From: Melioribacter roseus
GTDB taxonomy: Bacteria > Bacteroidota > Ignavibacteria > Ignavibacteriales > Melioribacteraceae
Assembly: GCA_020724265.1 (NCBI GenBank)
Contig: DYHH01000017.1
Location: forward strand, 1 to 64,000
Direction: 5' to 3'
DNA: 64,000 bases
This document shows positions 39,046 through 61,156 of this stretch, piece by piece; the stretch's first letter is position 1; each line of letters opens with the position of its first letter. A model generated the notes under the pieces. The model saw only the letters and a program-made list of their open reading frames with translations, made no database searches and was not told where the DNA came from. A program made the position numbers and the translations under genes.

Positions 39046-39146
39046 TTTTTACTCCTAAAAAATATTTAGTGCAATTTAAGACAAAGCGTCCGCTAAGTTA
39101 AAGGATTTTCGAATAGTTATCAATTTGGAGTTGAATAGAATAAAAA

Positions 39147-39318
39147 GAGGCTGTTTCAAAAGTAAATATCAAATAAAAAATCTGTGAAAATCTCGCCAGA
39201 GTTCGGTCGAAGACTCCGTTGGAGTCTTCGGACTCTAAAGAGCGTAATCTGCCGACAGTTCAAATCTGCGGTATCTGCGTTCTAATTTTATAATAAACTT
39301 TACTTTTGAGACCGCCCC
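39147..39318. mobile_element. MITE-like element with 20-bp terminal inverted repeats
   Basis: The left end (39147-39166, GAGGCTGTTTCAAAAGTAAA) matches the inverted right end (39299-39318) at 17 of 20 positions. The 172-bp unit contains no reading frame but has a 10-bp hairpin with a three-base loop (39208-39230, CGAAGACTCC arm). Ends of this GAGGCTGT(T/C)TCAAAAGT kind resemble insertion-sequence termini, so it is probably a non-autonomous derivative. No clear target duplication is visible. It lies between paaZ and the receptor gene. Confidence 0.6.
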
Positions 39319-39327
39319 CTATTTAAA

Positions 39328-45036: not shown

Positions 45037-45068
45037 GTTATTAAGTTATTGAGTTATTTAGTTATTAG
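45037..45068. repeat. Left octamer array (4 x GTTATTNN)
   Basis: Four tandem octamers: GTTATTAA, GTTATTGA, GTTATTTA, GTTATTAG. They directly abut the paaY start codon and include the stop codon of the four-helix-bundle gene. The array is inverted relative to the one at 45450-45481, forming a pair that brackets the gene. Confidence 0.9.
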
Positions 45069-45438
45069 GGTGATTGTTTCTCTTTGCTTTGTTTAAGTAA
45101 CTTATATAACCGTTCAACAGTTTGAGGGTTTTCTCGTACATCCCCCGGAACTCTGATAAAATTTCATTGTCTATGTATTCTTCATCGAATGCCACAATCA
45201 TATGGTCCAATGTTTCACAAAGCGATCCACGCGCCTGTCTGCAGTATTGAATATTCTCTTGATAATGATATCTTCCAAATCCTTCGGCAATTTGGTTGGT
45301 AATTCCTCTTGAGGATCTTAACGTTTGATCCGTCAGTTTATATTTTTCTTCAACAGGAAATCTTTTAACAACCTTTGAAACAAATATGCGCAATTCCCGC
45401 GCAGACCTCCAAACTTCTAAATCTTCAAAAGTGTGCAT
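45058..45438 (-). CDS. Four-helix-bundle protein (23S rRNA intervening-sequence protein family), cassette A
   Basis: A 126-residue all-helical protein of the family first seen in 23S rRNA intervening sequences (TIGR02436/S23-like). The opening HTFEDLEVWRSARELRIFV, the central LRSSRGITNQIAEGFGRY and the RQARGSLCETLDHMI motif are characteristic. There is no rRNA here: the gene lies alone between paaJ and paaY, bracketed by inverted octamer arrays, with its own AAGGA ribosome binding site. Its last two Asn codons and stop come from the left array. The function of free-standing members is not known to me; related folds (diversity-generating-retroelement Avd) bind nucleic acid or reverse transcriptase. 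It looks like cargo or an effector of a small mobile cassette. Confidence 0.85.
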   Translation of the reverse strand: MHTFEDLEVWRSARELRIFVSKVVKRFPVEEKYKLTDQTLRSSRGITNQIAEGFGRYHYQENIQYCRQARGSLCETLDHMIVAFDEEYIDNEILSEFRGMYEKTLKLLNGYISYLNKAKRNNHPNN

Positions 45439-45449
45439 AGTTATTTTCC

Positions 45450-45481
45450 TTAATAACTTAGTAACATAATAACTTAATAAC
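45450..45481. repeat. Right octamer array (4 x TTAATAAC type)
   Basis: Four tandem octamers TTAATAAC, TTAGTAAC, ATAATAAC, TTAATAAC, the reverse complement of the GTTATTAA unit of the left array. The last base forms part of the paaJ stop codon (TAG on the minus strand at 45483-45481). Together with 45037-45068 it delimits a 445-bp cassette with 32-bp arms. Confidence 0.9.
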
Positions 45482-46686
45482 TAGATTTTCTCAATAATAC
45501 AGGCCATTCCCTGTCCAACACCGACACAAAGCGTACAAAGTGCGCGATTCTTTTTCTGCTCTTCGAGCTCAATCATTGCAGTAGCGATTAAGCGGGCGCC
45601 GCTCATGCCTAGCGGATGTCCTAATGCAATAGCACCGCCGTTTGGATTGACACGGGGATCATTCCACTGTATTCCGAGTTCTCTTAATACTGCAATACTT
45701 TGTGCGGCAAATGCTTCGTTTAATTCTATTACATCGAAGTCGGCTAATGTTAATTTTGTTTTTTCCAGAATTTTCTTAGTTGCATAAATCGGTCCAAGTC
45801 CCATTACTCTCGGCTCTAATCCAACAACAGATGAAGTAATAATTTTTGCTCGCGGAATTAGATTATATTTTTTAATCACATTTTCCGAGGCAAGCAATAA
45901 AGTGCATGATCCGTCATTCAAACCGGAAGAATTACCCGCCGTTACAGTTCCGTTTTTTCTGAAAGCCGGTTTTAAAGTTGCCAATATTTCCGGGGTTGTA
46001 TCCGGCTTAATGAATTCATCCTCGTCAAAAATTATGTTGTCACCTTTTCTTTGAGGAATTTCAACCGGCATTACTTCCTTTTTCATTCGACCGGATTGAT
46101 TTGCTTTAACCGCTTTCATGTGAGAGTTAAATGCAAACAAGTCTTGATCTTCTCTGCTGATTTTATATTCTTCGGCAATATTTTCGGCGGTTTCACCCAT
46201 CGCTTCTGTTCCATACATAGCTTTCATTTTCGGATTTACAAATCTCCATCCCAAAGTCGAATCGTGAATTTCCACTTTACCGGAGAATGATTTTTCAGCT
46301 TTGGATTGAACTAACGGGGCGCGGGTCATGTGTTCAACTCCGCCAGCGATATATAAATCGCCATCACCCACATTGATTGCCCGGGCAGCATTAATTACAG
46401 CGCTCATTCCCGAAGCACAAAGACGATTAACGGTTTCGCCGGGAATAGTTACCGGAAGACCTGCAAGAAGTAATGCCATTCTTGCAACGTTTCTATTATC
46501 TTCACCGGCTTGATTTGCACAACCGAGTATTACGTCCTCAACCCGTGAAAAATCAACCGACGGATTTCGGTTAATAATTTCTTTGATTGTTAATGCGGCA
46601 AGATCATCCGCACGAACAAAGGACAAAGACCCGCCTAATTTCCCGATAGGTGTTCTTATTGCATCTATTATAAATGCTTCTTTCAT
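45481..46686 (-). CDS. paaJ: PaaJ: 3-oxoadipyl-CoA / 3-oxo-5,6-dehydrosuberyl-CoA thiolase
   Basis: A 401-residue thiolase that performs the two thiolytic steps of phenylacetate degradation. The acyl-accepting Cys is in NRLCASGMSAVINAARAI (about 91), His in NPNGGAIALGHPLGMSGARL (about 356), and the second Cys in LCTLCVGVGQGMACI (about 387). DVILGCANQAGEDNRNVARMA and TLGWRFVNP are specific to the PaaJ/PcaF group and match E. coli PaaJ in length. Its stop codon touches the right octamer array of cassette A. Upstream there is a 220-base gap with a repeat hairpin, so it likely has its own promoter. Confidence 0.94.
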   Translation of the reverse strand: MKEAFIIDAIRTPIGKLGGSLSFVRADDLAALTIKEIINRNPSVDFSRVEDVILGCANQAGEDNRNVARMALLLAGLPVTIPGETVNRLCASGMSAVINAARAINVGDGDLYIAGGVEHMTRAPLVQSKAEKSFSGKVEIHDSTLGWRFVNPKMKAMYGTEAMGETAENIAEEYKISREDQDLFAFNSHMKAVKANQSGRMKKEVMPVEIPQRKGDNIIFDEDEFIKPDTTPEILATLKPAFRKNGTVTAGNSSGLNDGSCTLLLASENVIKKYNLIPRAKIITSSVVGLEPRVMGLGPIYATKKILEKTKLTLADFDVIELNEAFAAQSIAVLRELGIQWNDPRVNPNGGAIALGHPLGMSGARLIATAMIELEEQKKNRALCTLCVGVGQGMACIIEKI

Positions 46687-46716
46687 ATTGATTTACTTTC
46701 ATAGATTTTAAAAATA

Positions 46717-46783
46717 TTTTTAATCCTACTCTTACTCTGAAACCAAAAGCGATTAAGATTATGATTAAGAGTAAGATTAAAAA
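46717..46783. repeat. Inverted hexamer arrays (AATCTT/ACTCTT type)
   Basis: The left arm 46717-46734 (TTTTTAATCCTACTCTTA) and right arm 46766-46783 are inverted copies matching at 17 of 18 positions, with hexamer periodicity continuing inward on the right (AATCAT, AATCTT). The words are the same as in the array at 26359-26409. There is no gene between the arms. It lies between the paaJ start and the paaI end. Confidence 0.75.
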
Positions 46784-46855
46784 CAAATGTTATTCACTCA
46801 CCTTATGCAAAGATGTTATTATATTAAATGGCACTCTATTTTAGTCTATAAAAGC

Positions 46856-46891
46856 AACATTGAAGGTCAAAAACAAGCGACCTTCAATGTT
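46856..46891 (-). terminator. Possible terminator hairpin after paaI
   Basis: A perfect 13-bp stem (46856-46868, AACATTGAAGGTC; 46879-46891) with a 10-base loop lies 15 bases past the paaI stop on the minus strand. The sequence following it in that direction is only moderately T-rich (GCTTTTATAG), so termination is possible but not certain. It may belong to the same dispersed hairpin family as 31816-31852. Confidence 0.45.
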
Positions 46892-46906
46892 TGTGTATAA
46901 TGTGAT

Positions 46907-57287: not shown

Positions 57288-58937
57288 TTAAAATCCTTTT
57301 TTAGAATATGTTTTAATTTTTATTTCACTTTTTGTAATCCAATTATCAGGATCAATTTGGGGAGTTATCAAATTAGGGAAAGTAATTTTTCCTTTCCCGA
57401 TTTTCATATTTATTTCCTTTTGATTGTTCCCCAAAAGAACTTCAACCGGCATTTCAAATATTGATCCGTCGGGTGTTATCCACTCCAAATTAAGTTCACT
57501 TTCATAATCTTTTTCTATTAGTACAGCATCAAGTTTCGGAAGTTTCGCATTCTTAAGATAAACATCAAACAACCAAGTCAATTTTTTTCCGGAGATTTCC
57601 TCAGCTTGTTTAATTAAGTCTTCTGTAGATACAAAACGGCATTGCGAACCGTCGGTTATTCTTTCAATTTCTTCATTGGGATAAGCCCATCTTCGTAAAA
57701 TTTTAAAGAATGTTTCATCACCCAAATAATATCTCAATGTATGAACAAACCAAGCTCCCTTATTATAAATATCGGGATGATATGCTTCGCTTGCGGGAAT
57801 GCTTCCTTCAAGTAGAACAGGTTTAATGTTCATAAATCTGTTTATTGTTTTCATATAATCATGAAGCCCCGATTTACCATGAAGTTCTTCGGTATAGAGA
57901 GCCTGCATATAAGTTCCGATCCCTTCATGGATCCAGAAGTCGCGCCAATCTTTTGCGGTAATTAAATTACCCCACCATTCGTGGGATAGTTCATGATGAT
58001 GAAGCCAGTCAAAACCGAACTCATTATTTTTATATCCGTTGCCGTAAGCGATTATTGTTTGATGCTCCATTCCCAAATAAGGAGTTTCTGCAATTCCGTA
58101 TTTATCAGCTCTGAATGGATACGGTCCGCAATATTTTTCATAAAATCTAATATGATCTAAAAACTGCAGGGTGAATACTTTCGCCGTATCATAACTTTCC
58201 GGCAGTACATAAAACATTACCGGGAATTCCTCGCCGGTTATACTTGTAAAAGTATGTTCAATTAATTTAAATGGAGCTAACGTTATGTTTATGTTATAAT
58301 TATTGATTGGTGTTGATACAAACCAGTGAGTTGTTTTTGTTCCGTCATTATTTACCACTTCGCTAATAAGTTTTCCGTTTGAAGCACATGTTAAATTATC
58401 CGGTGCGGTTATTATTATTGAAACAGAATCCGGTTCATCTGATGGATGATCTTTACATGGAAACCAAATATCAGCTCCACCACCTTGACAGGCTAAGCCA
58501 ATCCAATGCGAACCGTCTTTAGTTTTCTTCCATACAAATCCATCATCCCAGGGCGGCATTTTTGCTTCGCGGGGAATTCCTTCATACAATATCGTAGCTT
58601 CTAAAATATCACCAACCTGCACTTTCTCGATAGAGATTTTTATTAATCCGTTTTCGTGTTCGAAAGGTTTTGCTTCGTTGTCGATCAGTATTTGTTTTAT
58701 GCTATAGACATTATCAAGATGGAGAACAAAAAAATCAATAAGCGAAAGAACTTCGGCAACAATTAGTGTTGAGCCGGAAATAAACTTTTTATCCGGATCA
58801 ATATTTAGATCAAGTTCATAAAATTTCACATCATAAGCGGCTTGTTCGGGAAGAATTGGTCCTCCGGAATCTTGAGTGCCGAATTGAGCAAATATTACCG
58901 ATGAAAAAAGATAAAAGATGGCGAGAAAAATTTTCAT
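57288..58937 (-). CDS. Secreted M1-family aminopeptidase
   Basis: A 549-residue M1 metallopeptidase with a signal peptide (KIFLAIFYLFSSVIFAQ). The exopeptidase motif is GMEHQTIIAYG (about residues 289-299), and the zinc site is HELSHEWWGNLITAKDW with the third ligand in FWIHEGIGTYM (about 315-340). The downstream catalytic Tyr is probably in the YNKGAWFVHTLRYYLG region. It heads an operon with two PD40 lipoproteins. Its upstream gap carries the gene-less inverted heptamer arrays. It is unlike the first M1 protein in layout. Confidence 0.92.
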   Translation of the reverse strand: MKIFLAIFYLFSSVIFAQFGTQDSGGPILPEQAAYDVKFYELDLNIDPDKKFISGSTLIVAEVLSLIDFFVLHLDNVYSIKQILIDNEAKPFEHENGLIKISIEKVQVGDILEATILYEGIPREAKMPPWDDGFVWKKTKDGSHWIGLACQGGGADIWFPCKDHPSDEPDSVSIIITAPDNLTCASNGKLISEVVNNDGTKTTHWFVSTPINNYNINITLAPFKLIEHTFTSITGEEFPVMFYVLPESYDTAKVFTLQFLDHIRFYEKYCGPYPFRADKYGIAETPYLGMEHQTIIAYGNGYKNNEFGFDWLHHHELSHEWWGNLITAKDWRDFWIHEGIGTYMQALYTEELHGKSGLHDYMKTINRFMNIKPVLLEGSIPASEAYHPDIYNKGAWFVHTLRYYLGDETFFKILRRWAYPNEEIERITDGSQCRFVSTEDLIKQAEEISGKKLTWLFDVYLKNAKLPKLDAVLIEKDYESELNLEWITPDGSIFEMPVEVLLGNNQKEINMKIGKGKITFPNLITPQIDPDNWITKSEIKIKTYSKKGF

Positions 58938-58968
58938 ATAAGCAACGAGATTATTTTTTCTAAAATAC

Positions 58969-59095
58969 TAAATCCTAATTTCGAAATCCTAAACAAATTC
59001 GAAGTACCAAATACTAATATTCAACCTCAATTAATCGTCGCAATTTTTGGCTTTTTGAATTTAGAATTTGTTTAGAGATTAGGATTTCGGAATTA
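58969..59095. repeat. Gene-less inverted heptamer array pair
   Basis: Left arm 58969-58996: TAAATCC, TAATTTC, GAAATCC, TAAACAA. Right arm 59068-59095, read on the minus strand: TAATTCC, GAAATCC, TAATCTC, TAAACAA. Arms are inverted, four units each, separated by 71 bases without a gene. The units and their order match the arms of cassette B at 60661-61156, so this appears to be an empty relative of it. Confidence 0.85.
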
Positions 59096-59105
59096 GTGCT
59101 TCTTC

Positions 59106-59603
59106 TTAGATGCACTTAAAGTGCTCAAACGGTTGTTGACATGAGTTGCAGTAATGAAGTGATTTACATGCTGTTGATCCGAATTGTGAAGTAAGTTTTG
59201 TCTCTCTTGAATTGCAGTATGGGCATTCAATTGGTTTTGTAATTAGATCACGATAAAATTCGTTTTCGGCTTTTCCTTCGGGTGGAGCAATTCCGTATTC
59301 TTTTAATTTTCTTTTTGCTTCATCTGTTAACAAGTCTGTTGACCATGCTGGAGTAAATATTTTTTGTACCGAGATATTCTCAATACCATTTGATTTAAGT
59401 TCGGAAACAATATCATCCTCGATTGCTTTCATAGCTGGGCAGCCCGAATATGTAGGCGTGATCTTTACTACAAGTTCATTATCGATAAATTCAACATCAC
59501 GAACAATTCCCATTTCAACGATATTAATAACCGGAATTTCGGGATCGGGTATGTTCTTAAGAATATTTTTGATTTCTTGTAAATGTAGGTTAAGGTTTAC
59601 CAT
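59106..59603 (-). CDS. paaD: PaaD: phenylacetyl-CoA epoxidase assembly subunit
   Basis: A 165-residue protein with an N-terminal MIP18/DUF59 Fe-S assembly domain (IPDPEIPVINIVEMGIV, TPTYSGCPAMKAIEDDIV) and a C-terminal zinc-ribbon-like region with CPYCNSRETK, CKSLHYCNSC and the final C. PaaD is required for a functional epoxidase, probably for iron centre maturation of PaaA or PaaE. It overlaps paaC by seven bases. No paaE follows, unlike the common paaABCDE order. Confidence 0.94.
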   Translation of the reverse strand: MVNLNLHLQEIKNILKNIPDPEIPVINIVEMGIVRDVEFIDNELVVKITPTYSGCPAMKAIEDDIVSELKSNGIENISVQKIFTPAWSTDLLTDEAKRKLKEYGIAPPEGKAENEFYRDLITKPIECPYCNSRETKLTSQFGSTACKSLHYCNSCQQPFEHFKCI

Positions 59604-60660: not shown

Positions 60661-60695
60661 TAAATCCTAATTTCTAATTTCGAAATACTAAACAA
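60661..60695. repeat. Left heptamer array of cassette B
   Basis: Five tandem heptamers: TAAATCC, TAATTTC, TAATTTC, GAAATAC, TAAACAA. They lie directly upstream of paaB and are inverted relative to 61122-61156. The order of units, ending inward with TAAACAA, matches the arms at 58969-59095. Confidence 0.88.
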
Positions 60696-60736
60696 ATTCC
60701 AAATCTAAAATGGGAAATTCAAAACAAGTTAAACAT

Positions 60737-61087
60737 CTATTTTGATTTTTCTAAAATAGCACCAAAAATTTTCATTAATTCTGTTCCTTCTTGAATAAGT
60801 TCATCACGCTCTGTTTCTTGATCTTCATTACACATTATTAAACTTAACCAATAAACAGTTTCTTTTGACTCTTTTCGAGAAATTTTTATTCTCATTAAAA
60901 AATCTTTCTTACTTAATGATTCATTTGCCTCTCTATAATTCGCCCCGATTGAACCTGAAGATCTTGTACACTGTTTTATATCTTCAATATTAACAATATC
61001 CTTTGGAACTCCTCGTAAAAACTTTCTAACATTAGCAGCATACTCAAGCGTTCTATCTTCCCAATCATATTTTTTATTTCCTTTCAT
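60737..61087 (-). CDS. Four-helix-bundle protein, cassette B
   Basis: A 116-residue all-helical protein of the four-helix-bundle family. YDWEDRTLEYAANVRKFL, CTRSSGSIGANYREANESLS and RIKISRKESKETVYWLSLI are the hallmarks of a subfamily distinct from the cassette A protein. It sits between paaA and paaB, an order normally uninterrupted, in the same orientation as the operon and between inverted heptamer arrays. An AAGGA lies about 14 bases before the ATG. The function is unknown; conserved basic residues suggest nucleic acid or protein binding. With cassette A it shows that this protein class recurs in repeat-bounded insertions. Confidence 0.85.
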   Translation of the reverse strand: MKGNKKYDWEDRTLEYAANVRKFLRGVPKDIVNIEDIKQCTRSSGSIGANYREANESLSKKDFLMRIKISRKESKETVYWLSLIMCNEDQETERDELIQEGTELMKIFGAILEKSK

Positions 61088-61121
61088 CAGAGTTTCAAAA
61101 TTCCTTATTAGAATTTAAATA

Positions 61122-61156
61122 TTGTTTCGGATTTAGCGTTTAGAATTTAGGATTTA
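61122..61156. repeat. Right heptamer array of cassette B
   Basis: Read on the minus strand, five heptamers: TAAATCC, TAAATTC, TAAACGC, TAAATCC, GAAACAA. They are inverted against 60661-60695. The outermost unit provides the last two codons (Lys-Ser), and the next unit the stop codon, of paaA, so the insertion point is inside the end of that gene. Confidence 0.88.

Follow-up and report, generated by a model that had tools for sequence, protein, structure and literature searches.

The stretch of DNA analysed here, referred to as the window, comprises 64,000 nucleotides of a Melioribacter roseus contig (DYHH01000017.1, positions 1 to 64,000). In it, a gap of 168 bases separates the genes of an M1 family peptidase and of PaaD, and most of this gap consists of a single palindromic heptamer array (Table 1). 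This array is beyond chance. The initial annotation placed its limits at 58969-59095, for which 58962-59099 is the better choice; the resulting element spans 138 bases between two protein genes, and its inverted doublet sits in extragenic DNA. Four heptamers and four inverted heptamers do enclose exactly 71 bases, as first described, but the outermost unit on the right is TAATTCC and not TAAATCC. The 71 bases are indeed gene-less; nonetheless, they are no separate core, as they mostly consist of array, with anchors running to approximately 59024 and again from approximately 59047. These anchors are AA dinucleotides, seen as invariant columns in an alignment of gene-less copies, with a spacing of 7-7-7-11-7-7-7 that is mirrored around a short loop. 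This spacing is further called the ladder. Both halves of the paaD/M1 element carry eight out of eight anchors, the element being among the copies from which the ladder was read. Similarly, the E values of its profile matches (1.4e-26 on the plus strand and 3.4e-16 on the other strand) come from a model in which this copy is one out of 14. No target duplication is visible at this copy.

Table 1. Features of the paaD/M1 gap and of cassette B, with positions in the window.
Feature	Position	Strand	Remarks
Whole gene-less element	58962..59099	+	Profile R1 positions 2-139, E 1.4e-26
Left arm, 4 heptamers TAAATCC TAATTTC GAAATCC TAAACAA	58969..58996	+	Read from the sequence
Right arm, 4 inverted heptamers, on the reverse strand TAATTCC GAAATCC TAATCTC TAAACAA	59068..59095	-	
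Left AA ladder	58970..59024	+	Anchors 58970, 58977, 58984, 58991, 11-base step, 59002, 59009, 59016, 59023
Right TT ladder	59047..59101	-	Anchors 59047, 59054, 59061, 59068, 11-base step, 59079, 59086, 59093, 59100
Loop between both ladders, ~22 bases	59025..59046	no strand	Position of the S23 gene in cassette B
M1 family peptidase gene	57288..58937	-	Downstream of the element in the direction of transcription
paaD	59106..59603	-	Stop codon 6 to 8 bases from the element
M1 leader and left arm	58938..59004	-	65/67 bases identical in G002
Cassette B arm, paaB side	60661..60735	+	Match from profile position 2, reliable to ~75
Cassette B gene, four-helix-bundle S23 protein	60737..61087	-	PF05635, TIGR02436
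Cassette B arm, paaA side	61088..61156	-	paaA reading frame enters the arm

Cassette B, an S23 gene between two arms, starts 1.56 kb from the paaD/M1 element (at 60661). On either side of its gene, its ends align with profile positions 2-102 and 73-140, which correspond to both halves of the gene-less form and put the S23 gene at the position of the miniature's loop. Each arm contains eight out of eight AA anchors. The unit order, initially described as the same in both structures, is shared with respect to the ladder, but each arm of cassette B has five instead of four heptamers before the inner step. The paaA gene ends inside the adjoining arm, where heptamer 1 makes up its last two codons and heptamer 2 its stop codon (61147-61149); several arms supply a stop codon to the adjoining gene. 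Cassette B is the only long form of its family recognised in the genome, and it carries the S23 gene alone, with no transposase. When compared with solved structures, its protein has 2rld as sole match, deposited with five chains. An S23 relative from Xanthomonas forms a ring of five, according to the passages of PMC4990558 used here.

The most telling new fact is that the ladder is shared with one clade of S23 genes. Across 164 genomes of the order, the cassette-B protein has 29 matches with 49-63% identity, all outside this genus, which are further called clade B. Of these, 28 were turned into loci, 26 of which entered the test, including three with a stop inside the gene; L193 and L194 were left out because they are cut short. 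The 26 relatives are absent from the alignment that defined the ladder, but their arms were inspected before the ladder test. With at least 7 of 8 AA anchors as criterion, the ladder is present in 18 (upstream) and 17 (downstream) of the 26 relatives, compared to 12 and 7 out of 260 dinucleotide shuffles. For other S23 loci, these numbers are 4/113 upstream and 0/113 downstream. The gene-less copies reach 13/13 and 12/13 (shuffles: 1/130 and 0/130), where the 13 are the very copies from which the ladder was read, L074 of the 14 aligned being omitted. Over steps of 5 to 14 bases, the mean anchor score of the clade-B relatives peaks at 11, although a step of 10 scores the same downstream (6.69) and nearly as high upstream (6.65 versus 6.88). 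As the ladder is common to cassette B, its clade-B relatives and the gene-less copies, the paaD/M1 element is, judged by its sequence, the miniature form of the cassette-B family that has no gene. This agrees with the gene-less form anticipated in the initial annotation, for which the profile, the two cassette ends and the ladder test all speak.

In a DNA search of the whole genome, the element retrieved several gene-less copies of full length with 67-73% identity, next to many partial ones. Profile R1 was built from sequence only, using 14 copies at 10 sites in four members of the genus (seven copies from this genome, including paaD/M1). A search with this profile at E 0.01 yielded 15 gene-less places in this genome (paaD/M1 included) in addition to cassette B with its gene, and 21 places over three congeners (G002: 8; G001: 7; G003: 6). 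Matches on both strands were merged by hand into places; all 15 places of this genome were read, and those of the congeners partly. Of the 57 genomes drawn from the family, the 53 that belong to other genera give no match at E 1e-6, under strict filters that lose weak matches. The 15 gene-less places comprise eight full-length copies, five halves or short copies and two with extra DNA. A gene 3' end lies within 15 bases at eight of the 15 places (hand-scored), compared to 13% of the intergenic positions in the window (binomial 0.0003, or 0.026 with two chances per element). Among the eight full-length copies, 27 out of 28 pairs are 63-79% alike and one pair is 87% alike. Because the closest full-length paralogue of the paaD/M1 copy is only 73% identical and a single pair exceeds 79%, nothing points to very recent movement. 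In five loci (L073, L135, L140, L015 and L128), a small palindrome CCGTTAGCTAACGG or a near-variant occurs within a heptamer or replaces it. In four others (L122, L308, L321 and L155), the heptamer element is accompanied by a longer flanking sequence of approximately 100 bases that is itself dispersed and includes a run of G (or C).

Along 139 bases, the copies of C44 and C3 have 87% identity, and their likeness begins exactly at TAAATCC. Their flanks do not appear clearly related in sequence, as the flank scores are reached by 172 out of 200 shuffles on the left and 10 out of 200 on the right, and the pair is therefore read as dispersal of the unit itself. The alternative raised at the outset, that the arms spread without the gene, thus draws on the many gene-less places, with this pair pointing to dispersal. 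No two-sided match to the C44 and C3 flanks is found in the congeners. Larger duplications also occur, since C21:39578-39960 has around 68 bases of right flank in common with C44. An S23 cassette belonging to a different clade is located in this genome between the NADH dehydrogenase genes for the 30 and 49 kDa subunits, and the corresponding site in G003 is empty. There, both genes overlap as TTAATGG (stop and start codons), and this one empty site reveals no clear target duplication. The cassette-B family is probably mobile. The C44 copy (L117, around 2005-2145) is flanked by a pair of direct repeats, each of some 45 bases. A further probable miniature repeat, whose ends read AAGAGGCTGTNTCAAAAGTAAA, is present at 39046-39327 of the window and in L128, where it is nested within the heptamer element at C21:39578-39960.

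The paaD/M1 copy occupies the same site in G002, where it is 82% identical. In G001, the gap contains no element and an AAA_14/DUF4143 ATPase gene instead, so no empty site for this copy was found among the congeners; in G003, no orthologous M1 gene was found. Neither G002 nor G003 has a clade-B S23 gene at E 1e-10, yet both keep miniatures. Given that G002 has the element at the same site and no cassette-B-type gene was found there, the paaD/M1 copy does not stem from the neighbouring cassette 1.6 kb away. Based on this comparison of sites, the copy is old. Other copies are shared by site as well, as judged by their neighbours: C10 and C34 in three species each, and C43, C23, C36, C28, C56 and the short C21:114052 in at least two. 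The C14 copy is probably shared too, though its flank is itself repeated. These shared sites indicate that the family spread before the species in question separated, although not in a single episode, as the 87% likeness of C44 and C3 stands out from the 63-79% of the other pairs. Junctions may also be occupied differently. At the paaA/paaB junction, where this genome has cassette B, G002 carries a repeat with other words and no gene. In this genome, the C46 junction is occupied by a TAAATCC miniature; in G002 and G003, it contains a repeat of other words, likewise without a gene, and in G001 (L152:1600-2560, G001:C119) these other-word arms (GGATTTA.CGGATT...) surround a nucleotidyltransferase (PF18765/PF01909) and a HepT-like gene (PF01934). 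At the G001:C256 junction, G001 has a miniature and this genome a terminator-like sequence with no element. At the G002:2912096 junction, other words are found in this genome and one flank alone matches.

Beyond this genus, PF05635 is present in 55 of the 57 family genomes, with up to 31 matches per genome, and in none of 14 control genomes. The present genome has eight matches, seven of which are above cut-off, and its S23 cassettes use differing arm words (compared by eye; one has one side on the contig). Over 140 S23 loci, the median score for inverted-repeat similarity of the flanks is 31.5 versus 17 in both controls. A total of 70 loci lie above the 99% point of shuffles and 39 above that of cross-pairs; inverted arms hold for many S23 genes, though not demonstrably for all. 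In this set, L002 and L006 were dropped as they lack a flank, the contig ending on the downstream side of L006; L193, L194, L204 and L239 were not entered, L166 repeats L007, and L008 was retained though below the family cut-off. Arm words track the relationship of the S23 proteins (Mantel r 0.38, reached in 0 of 500 permutations), which holds above approximately 55% protein identity. Mean word similarity amounts to 0.28 within clade B plus cassette B and to 0.07 between these and the rest. The link may be due in part to common descent of whole loci. Six loci (L001, L209, L279, L280, L286 and L290) are S23 cassettes between apparently the same two NADH dehydrogenase genes, the gene families having been checked for L001 only; their arm words differ, except that L209 and L279 are alike.

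We consider it probable that the paaD/M1 copy is a miniature of the cassette-B family that is old and has been passed on vertically. The family would consist of short elements able to form hairpins, with a long form carrying an S23 gene in its loop. Copies may have spread by transposition or retroposition. The clade-B S23 protein, by analogy probably a five-membered ring, would recognise the 7-7-7-11-7-7-7 ladder as DNA or RNA, a putative partner enzyme would cut or copy, and the miniatures would have used the S23 protein in trans. Insertions near gene ends would survive because both neighbours stay readable. The paaD/M1 copy now looks like a fixed relic, which the M1 gene may have recruited as its leader. 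The findings suggest that selfish hairpin elements of a poorly understood type also exist in a small version without a gene.

It appears unlikely to us that the array is instead an immobile, conserved site that lies between paaD and M1 and serves cis-regulation or mRNA processing. This reading would agree with the occupied site in G002, where the M1 leader with the left arm (65/67) exceeds all 1580 M1 coding windows of the same size (maximum 64). It would also agree with the good folding of the element as RNA, which is better than that of 200 out of 200 dinucleotide shuffles on both strands (z -4.33 and -3.23); the inverted ends can form a stem. The same comparison with G002, however, leaves the core at 33/47 (70%) and the right arm at 75%, compared to 80-83% for coding sequences, while other limits give 84% for the last 45 columns and 65% for the middle. 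Moreover, arms are unequally conserved in other shared copies (96% versus 76% for C43/G001; 60% versus 93% for C10/G001), so that the conservation on the M1 side may be due to chance and not to a leader function. A scan for intrinsic terminators (G+C-rich stem and T run) and sigma-70-like promoters, to which types it was confined, returned none of either in the element. Neither is a maintained RNA hairpin supported, as covariation does not surpass that of shuffles: in-register pairing of the arms over 14 copies involves 74.7% of cells versus 74.9% in shuffles, with no excess of double changes, and RNAalifold on the aligned copies gives a weak 12-pair structure. The parts kept among gene-less copies are the ladder anchors and the inner CTAAACAA/TTGTTTAG, from which we infer that spaced anchors are recognised rather than a stem; the decay of a relic would leave no covariation either. 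A search for RNA families in Rfam gave one match over the element, the microRNA family MIR9563 at 26.7 bits versus a gathering score of 90, which was taken as chance. The initial annotation regarded conservation of core and arms at this site in relatives as evidence against a mobile element, and proposed comparing the core among copies. The site is indeed shared with G002, and the core has a common length and can be aligned over the 14 copies, but it is the least conserved part of the element relative to G002. Considering this, together with the gap without element in G001, the failure to find an orthologous M1 gene in G003 and 14 other gene-less places with other neighbours in this genome, a paaD/M1-specific regulatory site is insufficient as an explanation.

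It is also improbable that a former full cassette lost its S23 gene here by deletion in place. Cassette B does equal a miniature with a gene in its loop, and the other-word arms at the C46 junction enclose genes in G001 and none in G002 and G003; nevertheless, a common core length and an alignable core in 14 copies over 10 sites point to one miniature ancestor rather than to many separate deletions. A REPIN mobilised by its RAYT, a Y1 transposase, would likewise be an inverted, extragenic, hairpin-forming doublet, and the genome has two Y1_Tnp genes (PF01797). Neither of these, however, has the ladder arms within 1.5 kb on each side (best scores of 20-25, with shuffles up to 27), and they are flanked by other palindromes, by eye of the CCC..GGG type. 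Identity with this system, which we deem very improbable, was rejected since both Y1_Tnp genes of this genome are without ladder arms. Finally, the arrays may have arisen where they stand, with slippage and template switching enlarging them within AT-rich gaps and no movement involved, an explanation that we find hardly credible. Both arms are alike in words within many S23 cassettes, while the words of cassettes at the apparently same NADH dehydrogenase junction vary from genome to genome, which suggests that arms are homogenised locally. The same junction also holds different word families in different congeners. Yet, the same 11-step ladder at many places of one genome would be hard to produce in this way; one pair is 87% alike, and none were found in the 53 other genomes.

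Several known systems resemble a mobile miniature of this kind. The intervening sequences (IVSs) of 23S rRNA also exist as short forms without an ORF. They share with the paaD/M1 element and cassette B the inverted-repeat stem ends, a long form with an S23 gene in its loop, and the heptamers. In Coxiella burnetii, two or three tandem heptamers are reported (GACAGAT) with a near-copy just before the S23 ORF (PMC4990558). Unlike an IVS, the paaD/M1 element is situated between protein genes, not inside an rRNA gene, and its arms have the 7-7-7-11-7-7-7 AA ladder. As in the excerpted account of REPINs and RAYTs (PMC3116915), inverted doublets are extragenic, dispersed and hairpin-forming, with a family-specific protein gene as suspected partner. 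In contrast to that system, no link to a Y1 transposase was found here, the candidate partner is an S23 four-helix bundle, and full-length copies within this genome are 63-79% alike apart from one pair at 87%. MITEs are short and gene-less with inverted ends, and have a long form with a gene. The paaD/M1 element with cassette B as its long form is similarly built, but that long form lacks a transposase and a target duplication was not recognised. S23 proteins are not known to have catalytic activity. The Avd proteins of diversity-generating retroelements provide a further likeness, as homology with PF05635 proteins has been suggested for them in the part of PMC10053308 considered here. In the passages cited from PMC4990558, S23 proteins are without known function and the origin of the rRNA intervening sequence is unclear. 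Among the open-licence papers listed in a literature search, with subscription journals and preprints outside its scope, none was seen to describe S23-type elements that lack a gene and lie between protein genes.

The ladder shared with one S23 clade offers a concrete candidate binding site and a way to look for movement, and the gene-less family links rRNA IVSs with the widespread cassettes at gene junctions. A tentative and rather doubtful generalisation is that mobile hairpin elements outside rRNA form a large class, so far undescribed, for which S23 rings provide the recognition. Each clade would read its own periodic ladder of 7-8 base words, possibly with every subunit contacting one word in the manner of TRAP-type rings, insert at gene junctions and drive miniatures in trans, and rRNA IVSs would be members that landed in rRNA. 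The window contains another S23 gene in cassette A (45043-45505), with arms of eight-base words AGTTATTA, one of which provides the TAG stop codon of the adjoining thiolase gene (PF00108). Near cassette A, at 46687-46906, gene-less inverted words of another kind (GATTAAGATTATGATTAAGAG...) are present.
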